Shown here: one piece after another, positions 12,014 to 63,443 of the stretch
How positions within the stretch are numbered: position 1 is the stretch's first letter
Layout of the letters: every line of letters starts with the position of its first letter
NCBI GenBank assembly: GCA_039636775.1
Contig: CP143429.1
Coordinates: 3,410,001 to 3,474,000, forward strand
Source of the DNA: Micrococcaceae bacterium Sec5.8
GTDB taxonomy: Bacteria > Actinomycetota > Actinomycetes > Actinomycetales > Micrococcaceae
Direction of reading: 5' to 3'
DNA length: 64,000 bases
Notes under the pieces: generated by a model
The model's input: only the letters and a program-made list of their open reading frames with translations
Told to the model about the DNA's origin: nothing
Database searches by the model: none
Made by a program: the position numbers and the translations under genes

Positions 12014-13261
12014 ATGCAAACGCAACGAAAATGGATCGTCATTCTTTGCTGGCTTACGGTTGTCTTCGAGGGGTTCGACCTCGTGGCCCTGGGCGCCTCC
12101 ATTCCCACGCTGCTGGACACCAAGCATGCGGGCATTGACCCGGCGGGCGCCACCTTCGTGGCCACGATTTCCCTCGTCGGCGTTGGAATCGGCGCGGCCC
12201 TGATCGGTCCCATCTCGGACCGCTTCGGCCGGCGCCTGCCCCTGATTATCTGCGTGGCGCTCTTCTCCGTCTTCACTCTGCTGTTCCCCCTGATGCCCAA
12301 CGTGGCCCTGATGGGCATTCTCCGGCTGGTGGCCGGACTCGGCCTTGGCGGATGCATGCCGGTCGCCGTGACGGCCATGCAGGAAGCTGCGGCCAGTAAC
12401 GGCAAAGCGCACTCCAGCACCATCACCATGACCGGCTACCACGTGGGTGCCGTCGCCGCTTCGCTGCTCGCGCTGCTGGTCGGCCGCCACTGGGAATGGC
12501 TTTTCTACGCCGGCGGTATTCTCGGGCTGCTCGCAGTACCCCTCATGTGGGCCAAGCTGCCGGAGACGTCCCCCATCGTTGCGGCCTCGAAGACCGCGGG
12601 CGCGCCGGCCCCGAAGGTCCGCATCGGCAGTCTGCTCCGCGGGCGTTACCTGCGCATCACGCTGGGCCTTTGGGTCGCTGCATTTATGGGCCTCATGCTG
12701 GTGTATGGCCTGAACACCTGGCTGCCGCAGCTGATGCGCGGTGCCGGCTACAACGTGGCTGACTCCCTCGTCCTGCTCCTCGTCCTGAATGTGGGTGCCA
12801 TCGCCGGACTGCTGGTCGGCGGCCGGGTCGCCGACCGCCGCGGCGTCAAGGGCACCACGATGTTCTGGTTCGCGGCTGCCGCCGTGCTGCTGGCCATCCT
12901 GAGCATCAAGATGGAGAACCAGCTGGTGCTGAACGGCATCGTCTTCGTCACCGGCTTCTTCGTCTTTTGCGCCCAGGTGCTCGTCTACGGCTTCGTGGGC
13001 TACCTTTACCCCCGTCACATCGTCGCCTCCGGTATGGGGTTTGTGTCCGCCGTCGGCCGCCTCGGCGCGATTTCGGGCCCTTGGATCACCGGCCTGCTGG
13101 TGGTCGCCGGCATCGCCTACCCCTTCAGCTTCTACGTCTTCGCGGCAGCCGCACTGCTGGGTGTCGCCGCGGTGGCTGTCATCCCGAAGGTCAAGCTCGG
13201 CGCCCCGGAGGTGACCGAGGAGTCCCCCGCCGGGTCGGCCAAGCCTGCCGGCATCTCCTAG
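12014..13261 (+). CDS. MFS aromatic acid:H+ symporter (AAHS family)
   Basis: A 415-residue, 12-helix permease. EGFDLVALG in helix 1 is the AAHS form of the D-G-x-D motif that distinguishes benzoate and hydroxybenzoate importers such as BenK and PcaK, and GPISDRFGRRLP is MFS motif A in the loop between helices 2 and 3. It should bring an aromatic acid in with protons. The LysR-type box upstream matches the box beside the LysR gene that faces benzoylformate decarboxylase, so the likely substrates are benzoylformate, mandelate or benzoate (inference). Confidence 0.9.
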   Translation: MQTQRKWIVILCWLTVVFEGFDLVALGASIPTLLDTKHAGIDPAGATFVATISLVGVGIGAALIGPISDRFGRRLPLIICVALFSVFTLLFPLMPNVALMGILRLVAGLGLGGCMPVAVTAMQEAAASNGKAHSSTITMTGYHVGAVAASLLALLVGRHWEWLFYAGGILGLLAVPLMWAKLPETSPIVAASKTAGAPAPKVRIGSLLRGRYLRITLGLWVAAFMGLMLVYGLNTWLPQLMRGAGYNVADSLVLLLVLNVGAIAGLLVGGRVADRRGVKGTTMFWFAAAAVLLAILSIKMENQLVLNGIVFVTGFFVFCAQVLVYGFVGYLYPRHIVASGMGFVSAVGRLGAISGPWITGLLVVAGIAYPFSFYVFAAAALLGVAAVAVIPKVKLGAPEVTEESPAGSAKPAGIS

Positions 13262-13301
13262 GCTGCGGCCGCGATGCCGGAGAACCCCGTGCGCCGCGGT
13301 C

Positions 13302-13336
13302 CGGTGCCCGGCCCCGCCACCCGGGACCGGGCACCG
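13302..13336. terminator. Hairpin between convergent transporter and LysR genes
   Basis: CGGTGCCCGG (13302-13311) and CCGGGCACCG (13327-13336) form a perfect 10-base-pair stem with a 15-base loop between two convergent stops. There is no T run, so termination is likely but not certain. Confidence 0.5.
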
Positions 13337-13348
13337 TCGCCAGAGGCC

Positions 13349-14245
13349 CTACTCCTCGGGTTCGGCCAGCGCATCAGCCACCAGTTCCAGGAACCAGGCC
13401 GCAGCGCCGGTGGCCGATACGGCCGCATCCCAGTAGAGGGTTACTTCGAACCGGGGCATATCGAATGGCAGCTCACGGATGGCGACGGGCCAGCGCTGCG
13501 CCATCCGGGTGGCCATCTGCCGGGGCAGGATGGCCACCATGCGACAGCCCACCACCACCTCCGCGAGCGCGGAGAAGTGCGGAACCCGCAGGGCAATGAC
13601 GCGCTCCACGTGCTGCGACCGGATCGCCTGTTCCACTTGGTCGTGGCCCGCAGCCGGGTCCATGGCCACATGCTTGAGGGCCAGGAAGTCCTCCCAGCCG
13701 ATGCGCGGCCCCGGAGCCGCCGCGTCGGTCGGCAACACACAGACGTAGCGGTCATCGGCCACGACGGTGCGGCGGCCGGACACCTCCAGCGGAATGCTCG
13801 CGATGGCGCCATCGATCTTACCGTGGGCAAGCCAGGTTCGGACGTGGGAGATCTGCATGGGGACCACTTCCAAGCTGGCGCCGGGTGCCTGGACCACCAG
13901 CTGTTTCATGATCCGCGGCAGGAACGCATTCTCGCCAATGTCCGTCAGGCACAGCCGGAATGTCCGGGTAGTGCGGGTGGGATCGAACACCCGGTTCGCG
14001 TCCACGGCGTCGTCAACGGCGAGCACCGCCTGACGGAACACCGCCGCCAGTTCCGAGGCTCGGGCTGTGGGCGCGTATCCGGCCGGGCCGCGGACGAACA
14101 GCGGGTCATGAAGGGCGCGCCGCAGCCGGCCGAGGGCATGGCTGACGGTGGGCTGTGTCAACGACAGTTCCTGCGCAGCGCGGGTCACCGAGCGGTGGTC
14201 ATAGATGCTTAGGAATGTCCGGATCAGGTTCAGGTCGAGGCTCAC
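13349..14245 (-). CDS. LysR family transcriptional regulator of the benzoylformate genes
   Basis: A 298-residue LysR regulator. The N-terminal helix-turn-helix is SVTRAAQELSLTQPTVSHAL within residues 1-60, and the rest is the periplasmic-binding-like effector domain. The start is GTG at 14245, only nine bases from the dyad CATAGA-N5-TCTATG, which fits autoregulation. It is divergent from the benzoylformate decarboxylase gene and convergent with the AAHS transporter, both preceded by the same box. It probably activates both in the presence of an aromatic acid; the identity of the inducer is inferred. Confidence 0.9.
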   Translation of the reverse strand: MSLDLNLIRTFLSIYDHRSVTRAAQELSLTQPTVSHALGRLRRALHDPLFVRGPAGYAPTARASELAAVFRQAVLAVDDAVDANRVFDPTRTTRTFRLCLTDIGENAFLPRIMKQLVVQAPGASLEVVPMQISHVRTWLAHGKIDGAIASIPLEVSGRRTVVADDRYVCVLPTDAAAPGPRIGWEDFLALKHVAMDPAAGHDQVEQAIRSQHVERVIALRVPHFSALAEVVVGCRMVAILPRQMATRMAQRWPVAIRELPFDMPRFEVTLYWDAAVSATGAAAWFLELVADALAEPEE

Positions 14246-14253
14246 CAGCCCAT

Positions 14254-14270
14254 CATAGAGAGTGTCTATG
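14254..14270. promoter_or_regulatory. LysR-type box between the regulator and the decarboxylase
   Basis: CATAGAGAGTGTCTATG is a perfect 6-5-6 dyad with T-N11-A. It shares 13 of 17 bases, including both arms, with the box at 11884. It sits next to the LysR start and 89 bases upstream of the decarboxylase start, the usual arrangement for divergent LysR control. Confidence 0.72.
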
Positions 14271-14346
14271 CGGGAGCATCGAATTATTTGTTTGTCGGCA
14301 TAGGGGCTCGGATCCTAGTTTTGTAGGACCAGCAGCCCCGGGATAG

Positions 14347-15963
<1,617 letters not shown>

Positions 15964-15986
15964 TCCACCCCACCGAAAGGCACGCC

Positions 15987-17468
15987 ATGACTGTCTCCCC
16001 CACCATTCCCGACACGTTCCTCGACACCGCCCGCTGGGACGGGAAAATCAACATCGCCGGCTGGATTGAAGGTTCCGGCGGAAACCAGGACGTCATCGAG
16101 CCGGCCACCGGTGCCGTCCTGGGCAGCGTCGGCGTCGCCACGGCCGCGGACGTGGGGCTCGCCGCCACTACGGCCGCCGACGCCCAGCAGGCGTGGGCTG
16201 CCGCGCGTCCCGAGGAAAGGGCCGCCGTCCTGCGCCGCGCCGGCCAACTCTGGGAGGAGCACGCCGAAGAAATCCAGGGCTGGATCATCCGCGAAAGCGG
16301 CGGCATTCCGGCAAAGGCGGCCTTGGAGACGCACATCGCTGCCAACGAATGCTACGAGGCCGCCGCGCTGCCCTCGCACCCGGCCGGGGAGGTCCTGACC
16401 TCCAATGACGCGCGGTGGTCGTTCGCGCGGCGCCGCCCGGCCGGCGTCGTGTCCGTGATTGCACCGTTCAACTTTCCCCTCATCCTGTCCATCCGCTCCG
16501 TGGCCCCGGCGTTGGCCCTGGGCAACGCCGTGCTGCTGAAGCCGGACCCGCGGACGGCAGTGTCCGGCGGCGTCGCGCTGATGCGGGTTTTCGAGGAAGC
16601 CGGCCTGCCCGCCGGGCTTCTCTCGCTCCTGCCCGGCGGCGCGGAAACGGGCGCCGCCGTCGTCGAAGCCCCCGAGGTCCGGGTGGTCTCGTTTACCGGG
16701 TCGACGGCGGCCGGCCGAAAGGTGGGCGAGGCGGCAGCCCGGCACCTTAAGCGGGCGCACCTTGAACTCGGCGGCAACAACGCGCTGATCGTGCTTCCGG
16801 GCGCCGACCTCGCCAAGGCCGCATCCGCGGGTGCGTTCGGCTCGTTTATGCACCAGGGCCAGATCTGCATGACCACCGGCCGGCACCTCGTCCACGAGTC
16901 GATCTACGACGCCTACGTGGCTGCGCTCAGCGACAAGGCCGCTCACCTTCCGGTCGGCGACCCGGCAAGCGGCACGGTGGCGCTGGGACCGATCATCGAC
17001 GAGACACAGCTTAAACGCATCCACGCAATCGTGGAGGCCGCTGTCCAGGCCGGCGCACGGCTATCCGCCGGCGGCACCCACGACGGACTCTTCTACCGGC
17101 CCACGGTCCTGGCTGACCTCAGCCAGGACAACCCGGCCTTCGCCGAGGAAATCTTCGGCCCCGTCGCCCCGGTCATCAAGTTCTCCACCGTGGACGAAGC
17201 GTTGGCGCTCGTCAACGCCAATGAATACGGCCTCTCCGTAGGAATCCTGGGCGACGTCGGGACGGCGATGAAACTCGCAGACCGGGTCCACTCGGGCAAG
17301 GTGCACATCAACGAGCAAACGGTGCTGGACGAGGCCAATGCACCATTTGGCGGTGTGGGTTCCTCCGGAACAGGGTCACGGTTCGGCGGTGCCACGGCGA
17401 ATATCGAGGCCTTCACCGAGGTCCAGTGGCTCACCATGCGCCCGGAGATTGCGCCGTATCCGTTCTAA
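15987..17468 (+). CDS. Benzaldehyde dehydrogenase (NAD+)
   Basis: An aldehyde dehydrogenase of 493 residues that oxidises benzaldehyde to benzoate. Catalytic Cys294 lies in HQGQICMTTGRH, general-base Glu260 in HLELGGNN, and the cofactor region has PFNFPL and FTGSTAAG. The wording across the protein, including the C-terminal PYPF, closely matches the xylC/mdlD benzaldehyde dehydrogenases as I know them rather than general aldehyde dehydrogenases. AAAGG precedes the ATG. It forms an operon with the decarboxylase and is controlled through the same LysR-type box. Confidence 0.9.
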   Translation: MTVSPTIPDTFLDTARWDGKINIAGWIEGSGGNQDVIEPATGAVLGSVGVATAADVGLAATTAADAQQAWAAARPEERAAVLRRAGQLWEEHAEEIQGWIIRESGGIPAKAALETHIAANECYEAAALPSHPAGEVLTSNDARWSFARRRPAGVVSVIAPFNFPLILSIRSVAPALALGNAVLLKPDPRTAVSGGVALMRVFEEAGLPAGLLSLLPGGAETGAAVVEAPEVRVVSFTGSTAAGRKVGEAAARHLKRAHLELGGNNALIVLPGADLAKAASAGAFGSFMHQGQICMTTGRHLVHESIYDAYVAALSDKAAHLPVGDPASGTVALGPIIDETQLKRIHAIVEAAVQAGARLSAGGTHDGLFYRPTVLADLSQDNPAFAEEIFGPVAPVIKFSTVDEALALVNANEYGLSVGILGDVGTAMKLADRVHSGKVHINEQTVLDEANAPFGGVGSSGTGSRFGGATANIEAFTEVQWLTMRPEIAPYPF

Positions 17469-17891: not shown

Positions 17892-17932
17892 ACGACGACG
17901 GCGGGAATCTCCTGCCGTCGTCGTTCTGTTTC
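17892..17932 (+). terminator. Intrinsic terminator of the ACGACGACGGCGGGA class
   Basis: A 15-base stem (17892-17906 with 17910-17924) with one G-T wobble and an ATC loop, followed by TCTGTTTC. It ends the small hypothetical gene and also lies before the convergent cyclase stop. The left arm is nearly identical to those at 4664 and 25114. Confidence 0.8.
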
Positions 17933-17964: not shown

Positions 17965-18942
17965 TCAGCCAGCTCCCGGAGCCGCCACTCGCCGCATTGC
18001 GCTCTTCACCCGATACATGTCCTGGTCGGCGGCGATCAGCAGCGCTTTGGCCAGTTCCTGGTGCCCGGCCTCGCCCGCGTCCGCCGGCACGGCGGTGTCC
18101 GCCCGCCCGACGGACATGCCCAGCCGGAGCTCGGCGCCCGCGACGGTGAAAGCTTCAGCGAGGCAGTCCCGGACCCGTCCAGCCACTGCCTCCAACTCAC
18201 CGGGGCGCTCCAGCCAGGGAATGAGGACCACGAACTCGTCCCCGCTGTAACGCGTGACGGTGTCCGCGCTGCGCACCGCTCCGGAAAGCATCTGCGCCAC
18301 GTGTTCCAGTACCCCGTCCCCGGCTGCGTGGCCCAGAGTGTCGTTCACCTGCTTGAAATTGTTGACGTCGCAGAACAGCACACCCACCCGGTGCCGCTTG
18401 TCACCCGCACTGGCCAAGGCCGTCAGCAGGCTTTCCTGCAGCTGGCGCCGGTTGGGCAGACCGGTGAGCGGGTCGTGGAGGGCCCGGTGGTGCGCTTCCT
18501 GCAGGAGTTTGGCGCGCGCCGCCTCAGCATCCTCAAGCAGCCGGTGCGCACTGGCCAGCTCACGCTCATAACGCCGCCGCTCGGGGGCGCCGAAGAAGAT
18601 CATCAAGTCCCGCGGCTCCGGCCCGTCAGTGGTCCGGGTGACGGAGAGCAGCACCGGTCGGCGTTGCCCGTCGGCGCCCAGCAGCTCGATTGAGAGTTCG
18701 GCAACGTGGCCGTCGCGGTCCAGCTTCGGTCCGGCATGCGTGCGGTACATGAGCCGGTCCCCCGCCCGCATCAGGTCCAGCAGGCGCGTCCCGTCGAGGG
18801 CGCCGGCGTCGACGCCAACCCAGGCGCAGAGAGTAGCGTTCGCGGTGAGGATCGTTCCGTCGACGCCAGCCACGACGTACCCCGCGGGTGCCTGCTGGAA
18901 GAGCTGCCAGTAGTTGACCGCTTCCGCGGTCGCCTCGCTCAT
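17965..18942 (-). CDS. PAS-GGDEF diguanylate cyclase, partner of an RsbQ-like hydrolase
   Basis: A 325-residue cytoplasmic cyclase. A PAS domain covers about 10-118 (YWQLFQQAPAGYVVAGVDGT, ILTANATL), a coiled coil about 119-152, and GGDEF 153-325. The signature is RYSGDEF, a Ser replacing the first Gly, and the inhibitory site RSAD sits five residues upstream, so product inhibition looks intact. The ATG at 18942 overlaps the stop of the RsbQ-like gene in an ATGA junction. In Bacillus the equivalent hydrolase partners a PAS-phosphatase (RsbP); here the output is cyclic-di-GMP instead. Activity of the SGDEF form is probable but unproven. Confidence 0.9.
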   Translation of the reverse strand: MSEATAEAVNYWQLFQQAPAGYVVAGVDGTILTANATLCAWVGVDAGALDGTRLLDLMRAGDRLMYRTHAGPKLDRDGHVAELSIELLGADGQRRPVLLSVTRTTDGPEPRDLMIFFGAPERRRYERELASAHRLLEDAEAARAKLLQEAHHRALHDPLTGLPNRRQLQESLLTALASAGDKRHRVGVLFCDVNNFKQVNDTLGHAAGDGVLEHVAQMLSGAVRSADTVTRYSGDEFVVLIPWLERPGELEAVAGRVRDCLAEAFTVAGAELRLGMSVGRADTAVPADAGEAGHQELAKALLIAADQDMYRVKSAMRRVAAPGAG

Positions 18943-19754
18943 CCTTGCTTCAGGTACTCGAGGATGGCCGCAGATGTTTCCTCCGGCGCGCTGCTTTGGG
19001 GGAAGTGGCCGGTGGCCGCGAGCCGCACGAGGGTGCTGTTGGGGAGTTCCTGGTGCAGATACGTTCCGACGTGCTCCGGAGTGACGACGTCGTCGGTGCT
19101 CTGCAGGACCAATACGGGGATGGTGACGTCGCGGAGGAGGTGCCGGACATCGGACAGGAACGCCACCCGGGCGAAGTCGCGTGCCACCCGGGGGCTGATC
19201 CGGCCGAAGCTGCCTTGGATCTCGTGGTCCAATTCGGGAGCGCCCGGCGTGTTCATGTAGACGGGCGCCATCGACTCGGCCCACACGACGTAGTTGGCGT
19301 CGAGGGATTCAAAGACGTCGTCAAGGTCCTGTTGGGTGAACCCTCCGACGTAACCGTCCTTGGGGTGGTCCAGGTAGCCGGGCGATGCCGTGAGCAGGAC
19401 GAGGCGGCTGAACCCGAGCCCGTCGTCCCGGGCTGCTGCACTGACGGCCATCATGGACCCGACGCTGTGGCCTACAAGGGTCACGTCATGAAGGTTAAGT
19501 TCGGCACAGACCTCCAGGAGGTCATCGACGTAGGCGTCCAAGTTCGAATACTTCGTGGAACTGTAGGCTGACGGGTCGGATCCGCCGGAGCCCACATGGT
19601 CCAGCAGGACCACCCGGTAGCGGTCGGTGAACCATGGCAGGATCTTGCCCCACATGGACTGATCGGTACCGAAACCGTGGGCGAACACCAGAACCTGTCC
19701 GTCCGCCGGTCCGAACACCCGCACGTTGTTGCGGGCTGCCGCACCAGAGTCCAT
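18939..19754 (-). CDS. RsbQ-like alpha/beta hydrolase (KAI2/D14-type fold)
   Basis: A 271-residue alpha/beta hydrolase with the catalytic triad Ser97 (GHSVG), Asp221 or Asp222 (QSTDDVV) and His250 (ATGHFPQ), close to the triad of Bacillus subtilis RsbQ (96, 219, 247) in a protein of almost the same length. VGSGGSD, LDAYVDDLLEVC and GYLDHPKDGYVGGF follow the RsbQ pattern. RsbQ generates or senses a small hydrophobic signal for a PAS domain. The ATG at 19754 has GAGG six bases upstream. Its stop overlaps the start of the PAS-GGDEF gene, so the pair is a two-gene signalling module. Confidence 0.9.
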   Translation of the reverse strand: MDSGAAARNNVRVFGPADGQVLVFAHGFGTDQSMWGKILPWFTDRYRVVLLDHVGSGGSDPSAYSSTKYSNLDAYVDDLLEVCAELNLHDVTLVGHSVGSMMAVSAAARDDGLGFSRLVLLTASPGYLDHPKDGYVGGFTQQDLDDVFESLDANYVVWAESMAPVYMNTPGAPELDHEIQGSFGRISPRVARDFARVAFLSDVRHLLRDVTIPVLVLQSTDDVVTPEHVGTYLHQELPNSTLVRLAATGHFPQSSAPEETSAAILEYLKQG

Positions 19755-20185
19755 TGTTAACCTCATCCTTTTCAACCCGGCCGCTTGAACCCGCCAGTCG
19801 AGCCCGACGGCGGAAGCGTGTGTTTGCGCTTCTTCTGTTGCCGGATCCGGTGCGTTCCGAGGCCAATCCTGCTGGTGCTGTCCGGCGGCTGCCGGCGTGG
19901 CACGAGTGCACGCCGACTGGTTGGCTCAATAGTAGCCCGGCAGTCACGTATGGCTCTGGCTTCTCCATCCATCCCGCGGGGGTAGCACTCACCGGAACCG
20001 TCGAAAACCGCCAGATACCCGCGAAAGCAGAATCCTATGGATCGAATCTCCCGGCGGAACGGCGGTGAGCGCCCGGTGAGCGCGGTCAGGCATCCGCTGC
20101 CCGGCGCCGGCACCTGCCGGTGGGCGCGTGAACTGCGGGAGCGTGCCTGCGCCGCTGCCCGGGATCCGCGTCTGTGATGCTCCGC
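19755..20185. other. Intergenic region of about 430 bases without a supported gene
   Basis: This lies between the RsbQ-like gene and the YihY stop. A 47-codon plus-strand frame from ATG 20037 (MDRISRRNGG) has no ribosome site and I do not support it. The part next to the hydrolase must contain its promoter; I see no clear dyad or RNA gene. Confidence 0.5.
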
Positions 20186-36736: not shown

Positions 36737-39064
36737 TCACGCCCTCGGAAGGGGCTTCTCCGGGAGGCGGCCGGGGACGGCGTACCTGTCCGGGGACGGT
36801 AGGAGGGCACGGCTGATGAGCCAGGCGTCCAGTTCAGCAGGGGGAACCGGCCTGGACATAAAATAGCCCTGAGCGAGGTCGCAGCCGTAATCGCTCAGTG
36901 CCCGGAAAGCTTGCGCGTCCTCAACGCCCTCGGCCGTCATCTCCAGGCCCAGGCTGTGGGCCAGATCGATCGTCGAGACCACCAGGGCCGTGGCCCGCGC
37001 GTCATCCATCATGGTCAGGATGAAGGACTTGTCGAGCTTGAGCTCGTCGATGGGCAGCTCCCGCAGGTAGGACAGTGAGCTGTAGCCCTTCCCGAAATCA
37101 TCCACCGCAATCCGAACACCCATATCCCGAAGCTCAGAAAGGATGGTGCAGGCCCGGTTGCGGTCGGCGACCAGAACGTCTTCGGTGATTTCGAGGACCA
37201 GCACGGAGGGTGACAGCCCGCGGGCAGCGGTCATCGCTGCCACCTGGGCCGGCAACCCGGAGTCCATTACCGAACTGGCGGAGAGGTTGACAGCCACGGA
37301 GAGGGGCCGCTCCCGGGCCGCCCAGATCGCGGCCTGGTCCAAGGCCTGAGCGAGGACGACCCCCGTCAACGCGGGCATGAGCCCGGCTTCGTCGAACCGC
37401 TTCAAGAAGGTGTCGGGTTGCAGCAGACCCAGCGCCGGGTGTTCCCAGCGGACCAGGGCTTCCACTCCCCGAATATCCCCTGATGCGAGATTAATCTTCG
37501 GCTGAAAATGAAGGACCAGTTGATTCTGGAGGAGCGCGTCATTCAGCGCCTGCACGCTGTGGAACTGGCTGGGGACGACGTCGATCGCACCGTCCGCATA
37601 GAGACAGTGGCCGCTGTGCATGGTCTTGGCGGAGTACATGGCCAGGTCTGCTTTGCGCAGCAGCAAGCTCAGGTCCCGGCCCTGCTCCGGGTAACAGGAA
37701 ATGCCGATGCTTGCGTTGACTTGGACCGTTACCCCGTCCAGGTCATAGGGCTCTGCGAGCGCGGCCCGGAGTTTCAGTGCGACCGCCTGCGCGTCGGCCG
37801 GCCCGCAGTTCGCAACGTGGACCACAAACTCGTCACCGCCCATCCGCGCGAGGAGATCGACGGCGCGGAGTTGCCCCGACAGGCGTTCCGCGACCTGGAT
37901 GAGGAGCCGGTCCCCCACATCGTGGCCGAGTCCGTCGTTGATTTCCTTGAATTTGTCGAGGTCCAGCAGCAGCACCGCGCTGGGGTGCCGTGCGTCGGCC
38001 GCCAGCCGCCGGGGAAGGTCGGTGTAGAGGGCCCTCCTGTTTGATAGACCGGTCAGTTCATCAGTTCTGGCCTGCCGGTTGGCGTCCGACAGGCGGAGCC
38101 GCTGACGGAACACCAACGGCAGGGCGGCCATGGCCAGGGTGAGGCTGGCGAGCACCACGGCGAGGACTACCACCCGCTGCTGGGAAGCCAGGATCAGGAC
38201 ACCCAGACCGGCGGCTGTTGCGAGCGCCGGAACGGCCTGCGCGGGAACTGCGGCCCCCAGACCGCCGTCGGATCTCTCTGCTCGGCCCTGGAACACAATC
38301 CAGGAACCGATGAGCGCCGTACCGGCTCCCCACGCGGCATCCAGCGGCGTGCCGATGACGTACATGCCGCTAATTTCCAGCAGGGCGTAAGCGATGTCAG
38401 CGCCCGCAAAAGTGATGAGTCCCAGGACCAGCAAGCTCCATCCACCTGCCAGCGCCGGCCGCGCGGTCGCCGCAATTCCAATGACGGCCGCCACCAGCAG
38501 AAGATCCAGGAGCGGGTAGGCCGCCCCGACCGTAACCGTCCAGGCCCCCGTACCGTCGAGTGCCGAGTTCAGGACCGGGCTAAGCACCACTGTGAGAACA
38601 GCGGCGGCACCAAGGGCTCCGACGGCGCTGTCCAGGATCACGGGCCACCTCATGTCACGCGAACGGTCACGGACAATGACGGCCAAGGCCGCCAGCATCA
38701 GGACATAGAAACCCAGATAGCCGATGTCCGCCGGCGACGGCAAAGGAACGTCCTCGCCGGCTGCCGACTGCAGGACGTAGTAGGTATCACCCGCGGCCTG
38801 GCAGGACAGCGCCCCGGCGGACAGCAGAATCTCCGTCTGCCGGCCCTTCAGCCAGCCGACCGTCCACCAGCCCACTGCGGCCGGAAGCCATACCACCAGC
38901 AAGGCGAGGAAACCATCAACGAAGAAATCGAAGTCGGCCGAATTCCGAAAGGTCACTCCGGCCGCGTACGCACCGGCTACGGCCAGCAAGGCGCCAGGTA
39001 CCAGCCAGATTTTGCGGTCCCCGCGTCGGAGGCCGTGGCTCGTTATGAGTTGTTGGAAGACCAT
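36737..39064 (-). CDS. Membrane GGDEF-EAL cyclic-di-GMP protein
   Basis: A 775-residue protein. About ten membrane helices cover residues 15-320 and form a possible sensor. GGDEF follows at about 330-490 (ARMGGDEFVVHV with RAVD five residues upstream as the inhibitory site), then EAL at about 510-755 (VEALVRWEHP, VLEITEDVL, DDFGKGYSSLSYL). Both catalytic signatures are intact, so synthesis and hydrolysis are both possible. The start at 39064 is seven bases after a 35-residue ORF with a very good ribosome site, suggesting translational coupling. Confidence 0.92.
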   Translation of the reverse strand: MVFQQLITSHGLRRGDRKIWLVPGALLAVAGAYAAGVTFRNSADFDFFVDGFLALLVVWLPAAVGWWTVGWLKGRQTEILLSAGALSCQAAGDTYYVLQSAAGEDVPLPSPADIGYLGFYVLMLAALAVIVRDRSRDMRWPVILDSAVGALGAAAVLTVVLSPVLNSALDGTGAWTVTVGAAYPLLDLLLVAAVIGIAATARPALAGGWSLLVLGLITFAGADIAYALLEISGMYVIGTPLDAAWGAGTALIGSWIVFQGRAERSDGGLGAAVPAQAVPALATAAGLGVLILASQQRVVVLAVVLASLTLAMAALPLVFRQRLRLSDANRQARTDELTGLSNRRALYTDLPRRLAADARHPSAVLLLDLDKFKEINDGLGHDVGDRLLIQVAERLSGQLRAVDLLARMGGDEFVVHVANCGPADAQAVALKLRAALAEPYDLDGVTVQVNASIGISCYPEQGRDLSLLLRKADLAMYSAKTMHSGHCLYADGAIDVVPSQFHSVQALNDALLQNQLVLHFQPKINLASGDIRGVEALVRWEHPALGLLQPDTFLKRFDEAGLMPALTGVVLAQALDQAAIWAARERPLSVAVNLSASSVMDSGLPAQVAAMTAARGLSPSVLVLEITEDVLVADRNRACTILSELRDMGVRIAVDDFGKGYSSLSYLRELPIDELKLDKSFILTMMDDARATALVVSTIDLAHSLGLEMTAEGVEDAQAFRALSDYGCDLAQGYFMSRPVPPAELDAWLISRALLPSPDRYAVPGRLPEKPLPRA

Positions 39065-61904: not shown

Positions 61905-63443
61905 ATGAGTCCAGGGGAATGCGTTGAGGACCCGCGCCTGGAACAGCTGGTTGACGGCATTGTCCGGCTGGCCGCCGGGGAGCTGAACGCACGCATCGAA
62001 CCCTCGGAACAAAGAGATGCCATTGACGCAGTCATTACCGGAGTCAACCTTCTAGGGGAGGAGCTCGGGCATATCTATGCGGATCTGGAGGAACGCGTGG
62101 CCGCCCGGACGGCCATGTTGCGTCGAACGCAGGTGGAGTTGGAGCATATGGCCAAAACGGACGCCCTCACCGGTCTGGCCAACAGAACCTTGCTTAGCGA
62201 GCGGATTCACGACGCCATCCGGTCCGGCACAGACAGCGGACACGCCCCGGCCGTGCTCATCCTGGACCTGGATTCGTTCAAAGCCATCAACGACACCCTG
62301 GGCCACAGCGCCGGCGATGCCGTGCTGGTCGAGGTTTCCCGTCGCCTCCGCTCCGTCGTCCGGGCCTCGGACACTGTGGCCCGCCTCGGCGGAGATGAAT
62401 TCGCAGCCCTCATCACCGGAGCGAGCGCGGACGAAGTCATGCTCATTGCACACCGGGCGTGGGAAGCCCTGCAGGAAGGCGTGGACATCGGAGCAGAAAC
62501 GGTCTGGACCACGGGAAGCATCGGCATTTGCCTCCACAACCCGGGACGTTCGGCAGAGGACCTGATGCGGGGTGCCGATATTGCCATGTACCAGGCCAAA
62601 GCCCAGGGCCGGAACGGGGTCCAACTTTTCCACCCTGACATGCTCAACGCCGTCCAGGAACGCGCCCGAATCACCGGCGAATTGCGAAAGGCAGCTTCCA
62701 GCGGTCAGCTGGCGTTGCACTACCAACCGGTGGTTGAACTGGCGTCCGGCAAGATCGCCGGGGTCGAAGCACTCGTCCGGTGGCACCACCCCGTCCACGG
62801 AACACTCATGCCGGACAGCTTCATAGGCATTGCGGAAGAAACAGGTCTGATCCTGGAACTGGGACGGTGGGTCCTCCACGAGGGAATAGCTCAGCTAGGC
62901 CAGTGGAAACAAGAAGCCCCCCAGCTGACGGACTTCCGCTTGCACATCAACCTCTCGGCAGCCGAACTCCTCCGCAGCGACCTGCTCGCAGACGTCAACA
63001 AGACCCTGACCAAAAACGATATCGACCCCTCCCGCTTGGTCCTGGAGATCACCGAGAGCGTCCTGATGTCCCGGAAGACGGGCGAACAACAGGTACTTGA
63101 AAAACTCCGCGCCCTCGGCGTCGGACTACAGATCGACGACTTCGGCACCGGCTATTCATCCATCAGCTATCTGCGGGAAATCCCCGCCGAGACAGTCAAA
63201 GTCGACCATTCCCTGATCAAAAACCTCGAAACCGACCCCCGGCAACAGAAATTCGTCTCTGCCATCCTCCAGCTGATATCAGCAGCCGAACTCGAAGCAA
63301 TCGTCGAGGGCATCGAAACCGCCGAACAGGCCGCCCGGCTGCAAGCTATGGGCTGCCTTTACGGACAGGGCTACTACTTCGGGCGCCCCGCCCCCGCCGC
63401 GGCAATTCTCGACCGAATCAGCCGCTCCCAGCCCCGGTTGTAA
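61905..63443 (+). CDS. Soluble GGDEF-EAL cyclic-di-GMP protein
   Basis: A 512-residue protein without membrane helices. An N-terminal helical segment (LVDGIVRLAAGELNARIEPS, AVITGVNLLGEELGHIYADL) resembles a HAMP or coiled-coil module. GGDEF covers about 80-240 with RLGGDEFAALI and the inhibitory site RASD five residues upstream. EAL covers about 260-505 with VEALVRWHHP, VLEITESVLM and DDFGTGYSSISYL. Both active sites look intact. Located between the STAS-like protein and a methyltransferase gene. Confidence 0.92.
   Translation: MSPGECVEDPRLEQLVDGIVRLAAGELNARIEPSEQRDAIDAVITGVNLLGEELGHIYADLEERVAARTAMLRRTQVELEHMAKTDALTGLANRTLLSERIHDAIRSGTDSGHAPAVLILDLDSFKAINDTLGHSAGDAVLVEVSRRLRSVVRASDTVARLGGDEFAALITGASADEVMLIAHRAWEALQEGVDIGAETVWTTGSIGICLHNPGRSAEDLMRGADIAMYQAKAQGRNGVQLFHPDMLNAVQERARITGELRKAASSGQLALHYQPVVELASGKIAGVEALVRWHHPVHGTLMPDSFIGIAEETGLILELGRWVLHEGIAQLGQWKQEAPQLTDFRLHINLSAAELLRSDLLADVNKTLTKNDIDPSRLVLEITESVLMSRKTGEQQVLEKLRALGVGLQIDDFGTGYSSISYLREIPAETVKVDHSLIKNLETDPRQQKFVSAILQLISAAELEAIVEGIETAEQAARLQAMGCLYGQGYYFGRPAPAAAILDRISRSQPRL

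Follow-up and report, generated by a model that had tools for sequence, protein, structure and literature searches.

Nadezhdin, Brody and Price (2011; PMC3183031) described RsbQ and an RsbP-type PAS domain as a two-part sensor, encoded in 45 adjacent pairs. Three outputs were distinguished: PPM phosphatases in Gram-positive bacteria, histidine kinases in Gram-negative bacteria, and diguanylate cyclases in both, three of the cyclases also having a C-terminal phosphodiesterase. In Bacillus subtilis, RsbQ interacts with the PAS domain of RsbP, and the substitution F55A in the F-alpha helix inhibits RsbQ binding. Two models were put forward, product delivery (Model 1) and RsbQ as receptor (Model 2); earlier work cited in the same paper had found that B. 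subtilis RsbQ no longer signals once its triad is substituted. This description of the two-part sensor was restated in eLife 2025, and PMC12143880 cites PMC3183031 again. Moorella MtG, as cited in PMC12143880, uses a coiled coil to join a sigma-B-type regulator module to a diguanylate cyclase, as the locus described here presumably does, but has RsbT and the RsbU N-domain in place of RsbQ and PAS.

The window analysed here, a stretch of 64,000 nucleotides, comes from an Arthrobacter-type genome. An RsbQ-type hydrolase gene on its minus strand directly precedes a gene encoding a PAS-GGDEF protein (Table 1). The pair is an ordinary member of the module class described in 2011. It had originally been predicted to be a module not described as a standard system; that claim fails, since the cyclase output is among the three types given for the 45 modules in PMC3183031. 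The locus shares with the class an RsbQ gene directly upstream, an N-terminal RsbP-type PAS domain, a helical linker, a GGDEF output, and a PAS domain free of the DIT motif. It differs in having Ala20 in place of Cys and in equalling RsbP only at E82 and P96, and nothing tested places it outside the class. Compared with RsbQ-RsbP of B. subtilis, the energy-stress branch of sigma-B control, the hydrolase family, triad, gene order, and PAS type are the same, whereas the output there is a phosphatase of the PPM type with RsbV as its target and here a cyclase.

Table 1. Coordinates of the gene pair and its features within the window; residue numbers refer to the encoded proteins.
Feature	Position	Strand	Basis or remark
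RsbQ-type alpha/beta hydrolase, 271 aa, Ser97-Asp222-His250	18939..19754	-	Upstream gene; Pfam, relative of 1wom, triad alignment; read from ATG at 19754, alternative TTG start at 19775
PAS - long helix - GGDEF protein, predicted diguanylate cyclase, 325 aa	17965..18942 (stop codon included)	-	Pfam, AlphaFold2 model
ATGA overlap: hydrolase stop and cyclase start	18939..18942	-	TCAT common to both frames, ATGA on the coding strand; consistent with translational coupling
RsbP-type PAS domain, model residues 11-118	18589..18912	-	Class positions and AlphaFold2 model
Predicted F-alpha helix, residues 60-69, with M65 and H69 (RsbP F55 and Y59)	within PAS 18589..18912	-	Model
Predicted single long helix from PAS to GGDEF, residues 121-155	18478..18582	-	AlphaFold2 model
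GGDEF domain, residues 154-317; RxxD 224-227, SGDEF 233-237	17992..18483	-	Pfam, alignment
15-pair inverted repeat between convergent genes	17892..17924		Terminator-like on the plus strand only

The ATGA junction foreseen in the original prediction was confirmed. A 4-nt overlap was present in 16/16 same-genus group A loci, the window included (12 ATGA, 4 GTGA; in one of the 16 the cyclase frame is broken further on), and because it is kept throughout, the layout of the pair is not a matter of chance. Between the window and nine relatives, omega (NG86) was 0.12-0.22 (hydrolase) and 0.15-0.32 (cyclase), values that show purifying selection on both genes. Broken cyclase frames were observed in the group A copies L017/L050 and L008/L051, and related genomes carry intact ones. 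Inverted repeats near the pair were no more numerous than in shuffles (1, compared with a shuffle mean of 1.3), and a promoter scan for the pair did not find a sigma-70-type site.

Pfam placed the hydrolase in Abhydrolase_1 (E 3.4e-24). Its closest solved chain was B. subtilis RsbQ (1wom, E 6.1e-67), followed by a chain at 2e-55; the proposed analogy to RsbQ and RsbP holds. KAI2, D14, DAD2, and HTL chains gave E 1.7e-53 to 1.3e-40 among the 60 matches listed. The plant KAI2/D14 receptors belong to the same hydrolase family by sequence, RsbQ being closer to the window hydrolase, and their partners are F-box/SMXL proteins, not PAS domains. In an alignment of 92 RsbQ rows the window triad was Ser97, Asp222, and His250. 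The serine and histidine were as first proposed; the acid, then given as 'Asp221/222', settles as 222, which is Asp in 92/92 rows, while position 221 varies.

In the partner protein, Pfam recognized PAS_4 at residues 15-106 (E 1.1e-5) and GGDEF at residues 154-317 (E 5.8e-39). The AlphaFold2 model (52 sequences; mean pLDDT 84, pTM 0.61) comprises PAS-type strands and helices, one helix, and then the GGDEF domain, in the order of Table 1. The PAS blocks had pLDDT values of 59-88, with only 64 at residues 61-70 (F-alpha), and structural details there are therefore uncertain; in the linker helix, pLDDT was 70 at residues 121-130 and 92-95 at residues 131-160. The class has a helical linker to the output with a minimum length of 21 residues; in the model this helix takes that place, and it is presumed to be a signalling coiled coil.

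Nine positions define the RsbP-PAS class (C10, L13, L48, Q53, F55, C56, Y59, E72, and P86), the first being Cys in 80% of the class; the text of PMC3183031 gives the class letters without assigning each to its position. The window equivalents are A20, V23, M58, R63, M65, Y66, H69, E82, and P96, in a register (RsbP n = window n+10) that was set from published residue numbers, not an RsbP sequence, and that the motif hPhG, P62, E72, and P86 all fit. Apart from E82 and P96, which equal B. subtilis RsbP, the other seven residues differ, mostly being similar in kind, although A20 is not the Cys typical of the class. The letters of the window recur at class positions in other RsbQ-paired PAS domains. 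The PAS domains of 80 partner proteins were aligned, excluding the frame-broken readings L008 and L104, and class positions vary even within these RsbQ-paired proteins. Position 82 was Glu in 17/17 diguanylate cyclases (DGC), 14/14 cyclase-phosphodiesterases (DGC-PDE), 25/25 histidine kinases (HK), 10/20 PPM phosphatases, and 3/4 others; position 69 was His in 17/17, 10/14, 16/25, 20/20, and 2/4 of the same groups, and position 96 was Pro in 16/17, 3/14, 24/25, 18/20, and 4/4. The DIT motif (D[IV]T), a mark of unpaired PAS relatives according to PMC3183031, was found at the PAS end in 0/80 aligned partner proteins, the window included. The seven differences from RsbP count against the explanation we prefer, in particular that at the equivalent of F55, needed for RsbQ binding in B. 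subtilis, which is Met65 in the window and Met in 16/17 DGC-group rows. A further point against it is Arg59 of the window PAS (18766-18768): the remaining 16 rows of the DGC group all carry Pro at this position, and the Arg could mean drift in this copy. The low model confidence at F-alpha also counts against it.

That explanation, drawn from sequence and from analogy with described systems, is that the pair is quite probably a cytoplasmic small-molecule sensor of the RsbQ-PAS type, controlling c-di-GMP synthesis by contact between hydrolase and PAS domain. In the cytoplasm a small molecule would enter the hydrolase, which would contact the PAS domain at its F-alpha helix; the PAS dimer would relay the change through helix 121-155 to the GGDEF dimer, the signal would set the rate of c-di-GMP synthesis, and the RxxD site may subject the cyclase to product inhibition. 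We infer the physical contact, the dimerization, and the control of the cyclase from what is known of RsbQP in B. subtilis and of PAS-GGDEF proteins in general. A butenolide-like ligand is our guess from the literature on RsbQ and KAI2; as Melville reportedly found in 2024, B. subtilis perceives butenolides through RsbQ. The genome contains 12 GGDEF and 10 EAL matches. A search of the genome for PilZ gave no match, and this too counts against the preferred explanation.

Two further GGDEF-EAL proteins are encoded in the window (GGDEF at 37619-38071 and 62151-62615; EAL at 36848-37552 and 62679-63389), which thus carries 3 of the 12 GGDEF matches of the genome. Beside the pair, positions 12014-17468 encode a transporter-like protein, a LysR-type regulator, and benzoylformate-decarboxylase-like and aldehyde-dehydrogenase-like enzymes (names assigned by eye), possibly an aromatic-acid pathway. 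A guess at the signal from the two enzymes was rejected, this set of genes not being common to the other group A neighbourhoods.

Within this explanation the role of RsbQ can be read in two ways. One, held with less than even confidence, is that RsbQ in the module is a receptor, not a signal-making enzyme, and that the PAS domain reads its occupancy; the same would apply to the window, where hydrolysis would be the reset, and the sensing half would have moved among outputs in the family. Under product delivery, which seems to us rather unlikely, the hydrolase would turn over a substrate and pass the product to the PAS pocket, the real sensor. In its favour, the Ser-Asp-His triad is intact in the window and in 84/92 aligned RsbQ rows overall, and the triad substitutions reported for B. 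subtilis (cited in PMC3183031) abolish signalling. Against it stands an RsbQ clade that has lost the catalytic histidine and has been kept by purifying selection beside PAS-histidine kinases.

This second RsbQ clade was found in a sister genus (29 genomes), at 17 loci in 15 genomes; named relatives are Arthrobacter sp. zg-Y238, zg-Y769, and zg-Y844, A. zhaoxinii, and A. yangruifuii. At the 17 loci the catalytic His is replaced by Asn in 12, Ser in 3, and Thr in 1, and is kept in 1; two loci also have Thr for the catalytic Ser. The loci lacking His are L129-L138, L140-L143, L157, and L158, and the named copies are L159-L162 and L164, the last from Arthrobacter sp. zg-Y238 with Asn for His. In 17/17 the next gene downstream encodes a protein of PAS type in which a HisKA motif is present. 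The alignment to 1wom is gap-free at the catalytic His (GHCPH in RsbQ, GNMPH in the clade). Of 5783 homologues of one triad-less RsbQ over threshold, the best 120 were examined. Fifty-seven of these carry QG for HG and form the triad-less clade, in which 55/57 are without the His (41 Asn, 12 Ser, 2 Thr; 19 have Thr for Ser) and two keep it; Ser-Asp-His is kept in 63/63 of the homologues outside the clade. With the His absent from 55 of the 57 clade members among these best 120, it is unlikely that the signal there comes from turnover by the usual triad. Comparison of the five named copies gave omega values of 0.22-0.31 (hydrolase) and 0.20-0.27 (kinase), so that selection maintains the triad-less RsbQ proteins and their kinases. 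The triad-less hydrolase, modelled from five sequences, shows its strands and helices in the order usual for hydrolases, at modest confidence (mean pLDDT 74, pTM 0.78). It is possible, on the sequences, that another residue has taken over catalysis in this clade. The clade thus favours the receptor model for its own members and is not proof for the window, where the triad is intact. A further clade copy, L163, has a broken frame.

Two candidate arguments concerning this clade were rejected. The change from HG to QG was dropped as a catalytic argument and taken as a clade mark only, B. subtilis RsbQ having P there. PAS position 69 (RsbP Y59) is Tyr or Phe in 8/9 triad-less-clade rows, as against His in 17/17 DGC and 20/20 PPM rows; a link to the hydrolase His was rejected in favour of a clade trait, for the one clade member with intact His also has Tyr at 69, and in B. 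subtilis Tyr occurs together with a complete triad. In a full-text literature search for an RsbQ pseudoenzyme, mostly outside the subscription papers, the only pseudo-enzyme met was RssB, and RsbQ-PAS-kinase modules of the Arthrobacter clade without the catalytic His were not found in the literature searched.

Whether the two genes belong together at all was addressed by searching 198 same-genus genomes (that of the window included) with the hydrolase and with the PAS domain plus linker. At E 1e-6 the PAS query gave 35 rows at 34 loci, one PAS being split into two rows, in 33/198 genomes; RsbQ directly adjoins 34/34 of these loci (35/35 rows). RsbQ rows of at least 75 bits numbered 75 in 61 genomes, fragments included (three G131 rows, one each of G093 and G168): 34 were paired, and 41, in 38/198 genomes, were not. 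Rows below that score (at most 30% identity among those listed, a G168 piece apart) and, for the split genes G093 and G168, the second piece of each were excluded from the count. Ten genomes have both paired and solo RsbQ, and 28/198 have RsbQ rows and no PAS match, 'solo' meaning that the window PAS as query gave no match there at E 1e-6; nine such loci of the genus were read directly. In this sample, therefore, PAS implies RsbQ and not vice versa, and with about half of the same-genus RsbQ copies unpaired, RsbQ may act without PAS, a point against the preferred explanation. The original prediction had staked itself on frequent adjacency of the two genes; this survey does not refute it, although the solo copies of RsbQ lack such a PAS.

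It is improbable that the genes are mere neighbours, with the hydrolase serving metabolism as an esterase while the PAS-GGDEF protein senses alone (light, redox, a gas, or a metabolite). Many PAS-GGDEF proteins do work alone, and the unpaired RsbQ rows fit such an arrangement; the pairing of every PAS locus in otherwise differing neighbourhoods, the conserved 4-nt overlap, and the lack of a DIT motif argue against it. When 10 group A neighbourhoods were compared, the RsbQ-cyclase pair was the common element; the other matches comprised those linking the closely related strains L044 and L050, two genes common to L041 and L043, a 72-aa ORF common to L042 and L051, and hits at 25-36% identity that reflect superfamily membership. 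Gene calling in this comparison missed the cyclases of the window, L043, and L051, which were read separately (that of L051 is frame-broken). Hydrolase and PAS identities were correlated (r = 0.80 over 3160 pairs, uncorrected for common descent). An apparent natural fusion of an RsbQ piece and a PAS domain in one frame (P0007) was rejected: its reading frame begins within the hydrolase and no longer follows the GGDEF sequence at the end, which we read as a metagenome frame error.

The solo copies form a clade of their own (SH-aLRT 99) of nine genus copies and one at a contig end from another genus, beside the GGDEF-EAL modules of the genus. The nine (L019, L021, L024, L026, L028, L031, L034, L047, and L048) have Ser-Asp-His intact, varied neighbourhoods, and no PAS protein behind them.

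The SGDEF variant and intact RxxD site foreseen for the cyclase were borne out, in the arrangement R224-SAD-TVTRY-S233-GDEF with RxxD five residues ahead of SGDEF. That the GGDEF domain is a receptor for c-di-GMP or GTP and not an active cyclase, as the Ser in place of the first glycine might suggest, is very improbable given that the metal-site and substrate motifs (FCDVNNFKQVND, SGDEF, RxxD) are present, that D192, F196, K197, N200, D201, R224, D227, and S233-F237 are invariant in 52/52 aligned sequences (the window included), and that a change of the first glycine is not unusual, an AGDEF cyclase that makes c-di-GMP being in print.

Beyond the genus, RsbQ matches at E 1e-40 occurred in 31/245 genomes of a family sample and 24/396 of a phylum sample (the genome of the window counted in both, and five more same-genus genomes in the former). 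All listed out-of-genus matches were taken, giving 58 loci with 59 RsbQ copies. By motif, the downstream protein was a HisKA-type kinase in 26, a GGDEF protein in 9 (5 with EAL), and a PPM phosphatase in 20; in 4 (L074, L104, L107, and L108) it had none of these motifs. In the GGDEF cases L106 and L109 the RsbQ copy is a remote one, and in the L109 partner a PAS domain of the RsbP-type class was not seen. These output labels come from motif searches; a Pfam check on 10 proteins besides that of the window confirmed kinases (L054, L057, L075, and plasmid L127), GGDEF-EAL proteins (L032, L060, L072, and plasmid L126), a phosphatase (L087), and a cyclase (L041). In a hydrolase tree of 92 rows, built by a quick method, the 67 rows of the family form one clade (support 99), within which the DGC (18 rows, 96), DGC-PDE, HK, and solo types lie together. 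The six labels, in which L104 was called a phosphatase by eye and L105 (HisKA motif) was put under 'other', need 7 changes on this tree, compared with a shuffled mean of 55.4. Since DGC, DGC-PDE, and HK types share one family clade, different outputs have been attached to the sensing half in the course of this family's history. Such switching among cyclase, cyclase-phosphodiesterase, and histidine kinase within one family was not found in the literature searched.

At eight loci (L018, L020, L022, L023, L025, L027, L029, and L030) RsbQ is followed by a PAS-GGDEF-EAL protein without the RxxD inhibition site; from its sequence this partner may serve c-di-GMP breakdown. RsbQ modules also occur on mobilizable Arthrobacter plasmids, with a GGDEF-EAL protein on AP018698.1 (L126) and a histidine kinase on NZ_MH067970.1 (L127). 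Histidine kinase outputs in a Gram-positive family and plasmid-borne RsbQ modules go beyond the portion of the text of PMC3183031 available to us.

The pair is a small, testable case of a hormone-receptor-like hydrolase that would set c-di-GMP. The choice between product delivery and receptor was left open in PMC3183031, and a similar debate concerns the strigolactone and karrikin receptors of plants; naturally triad-less RsbQ proteins beside PAS-kinases make that question directly testable.
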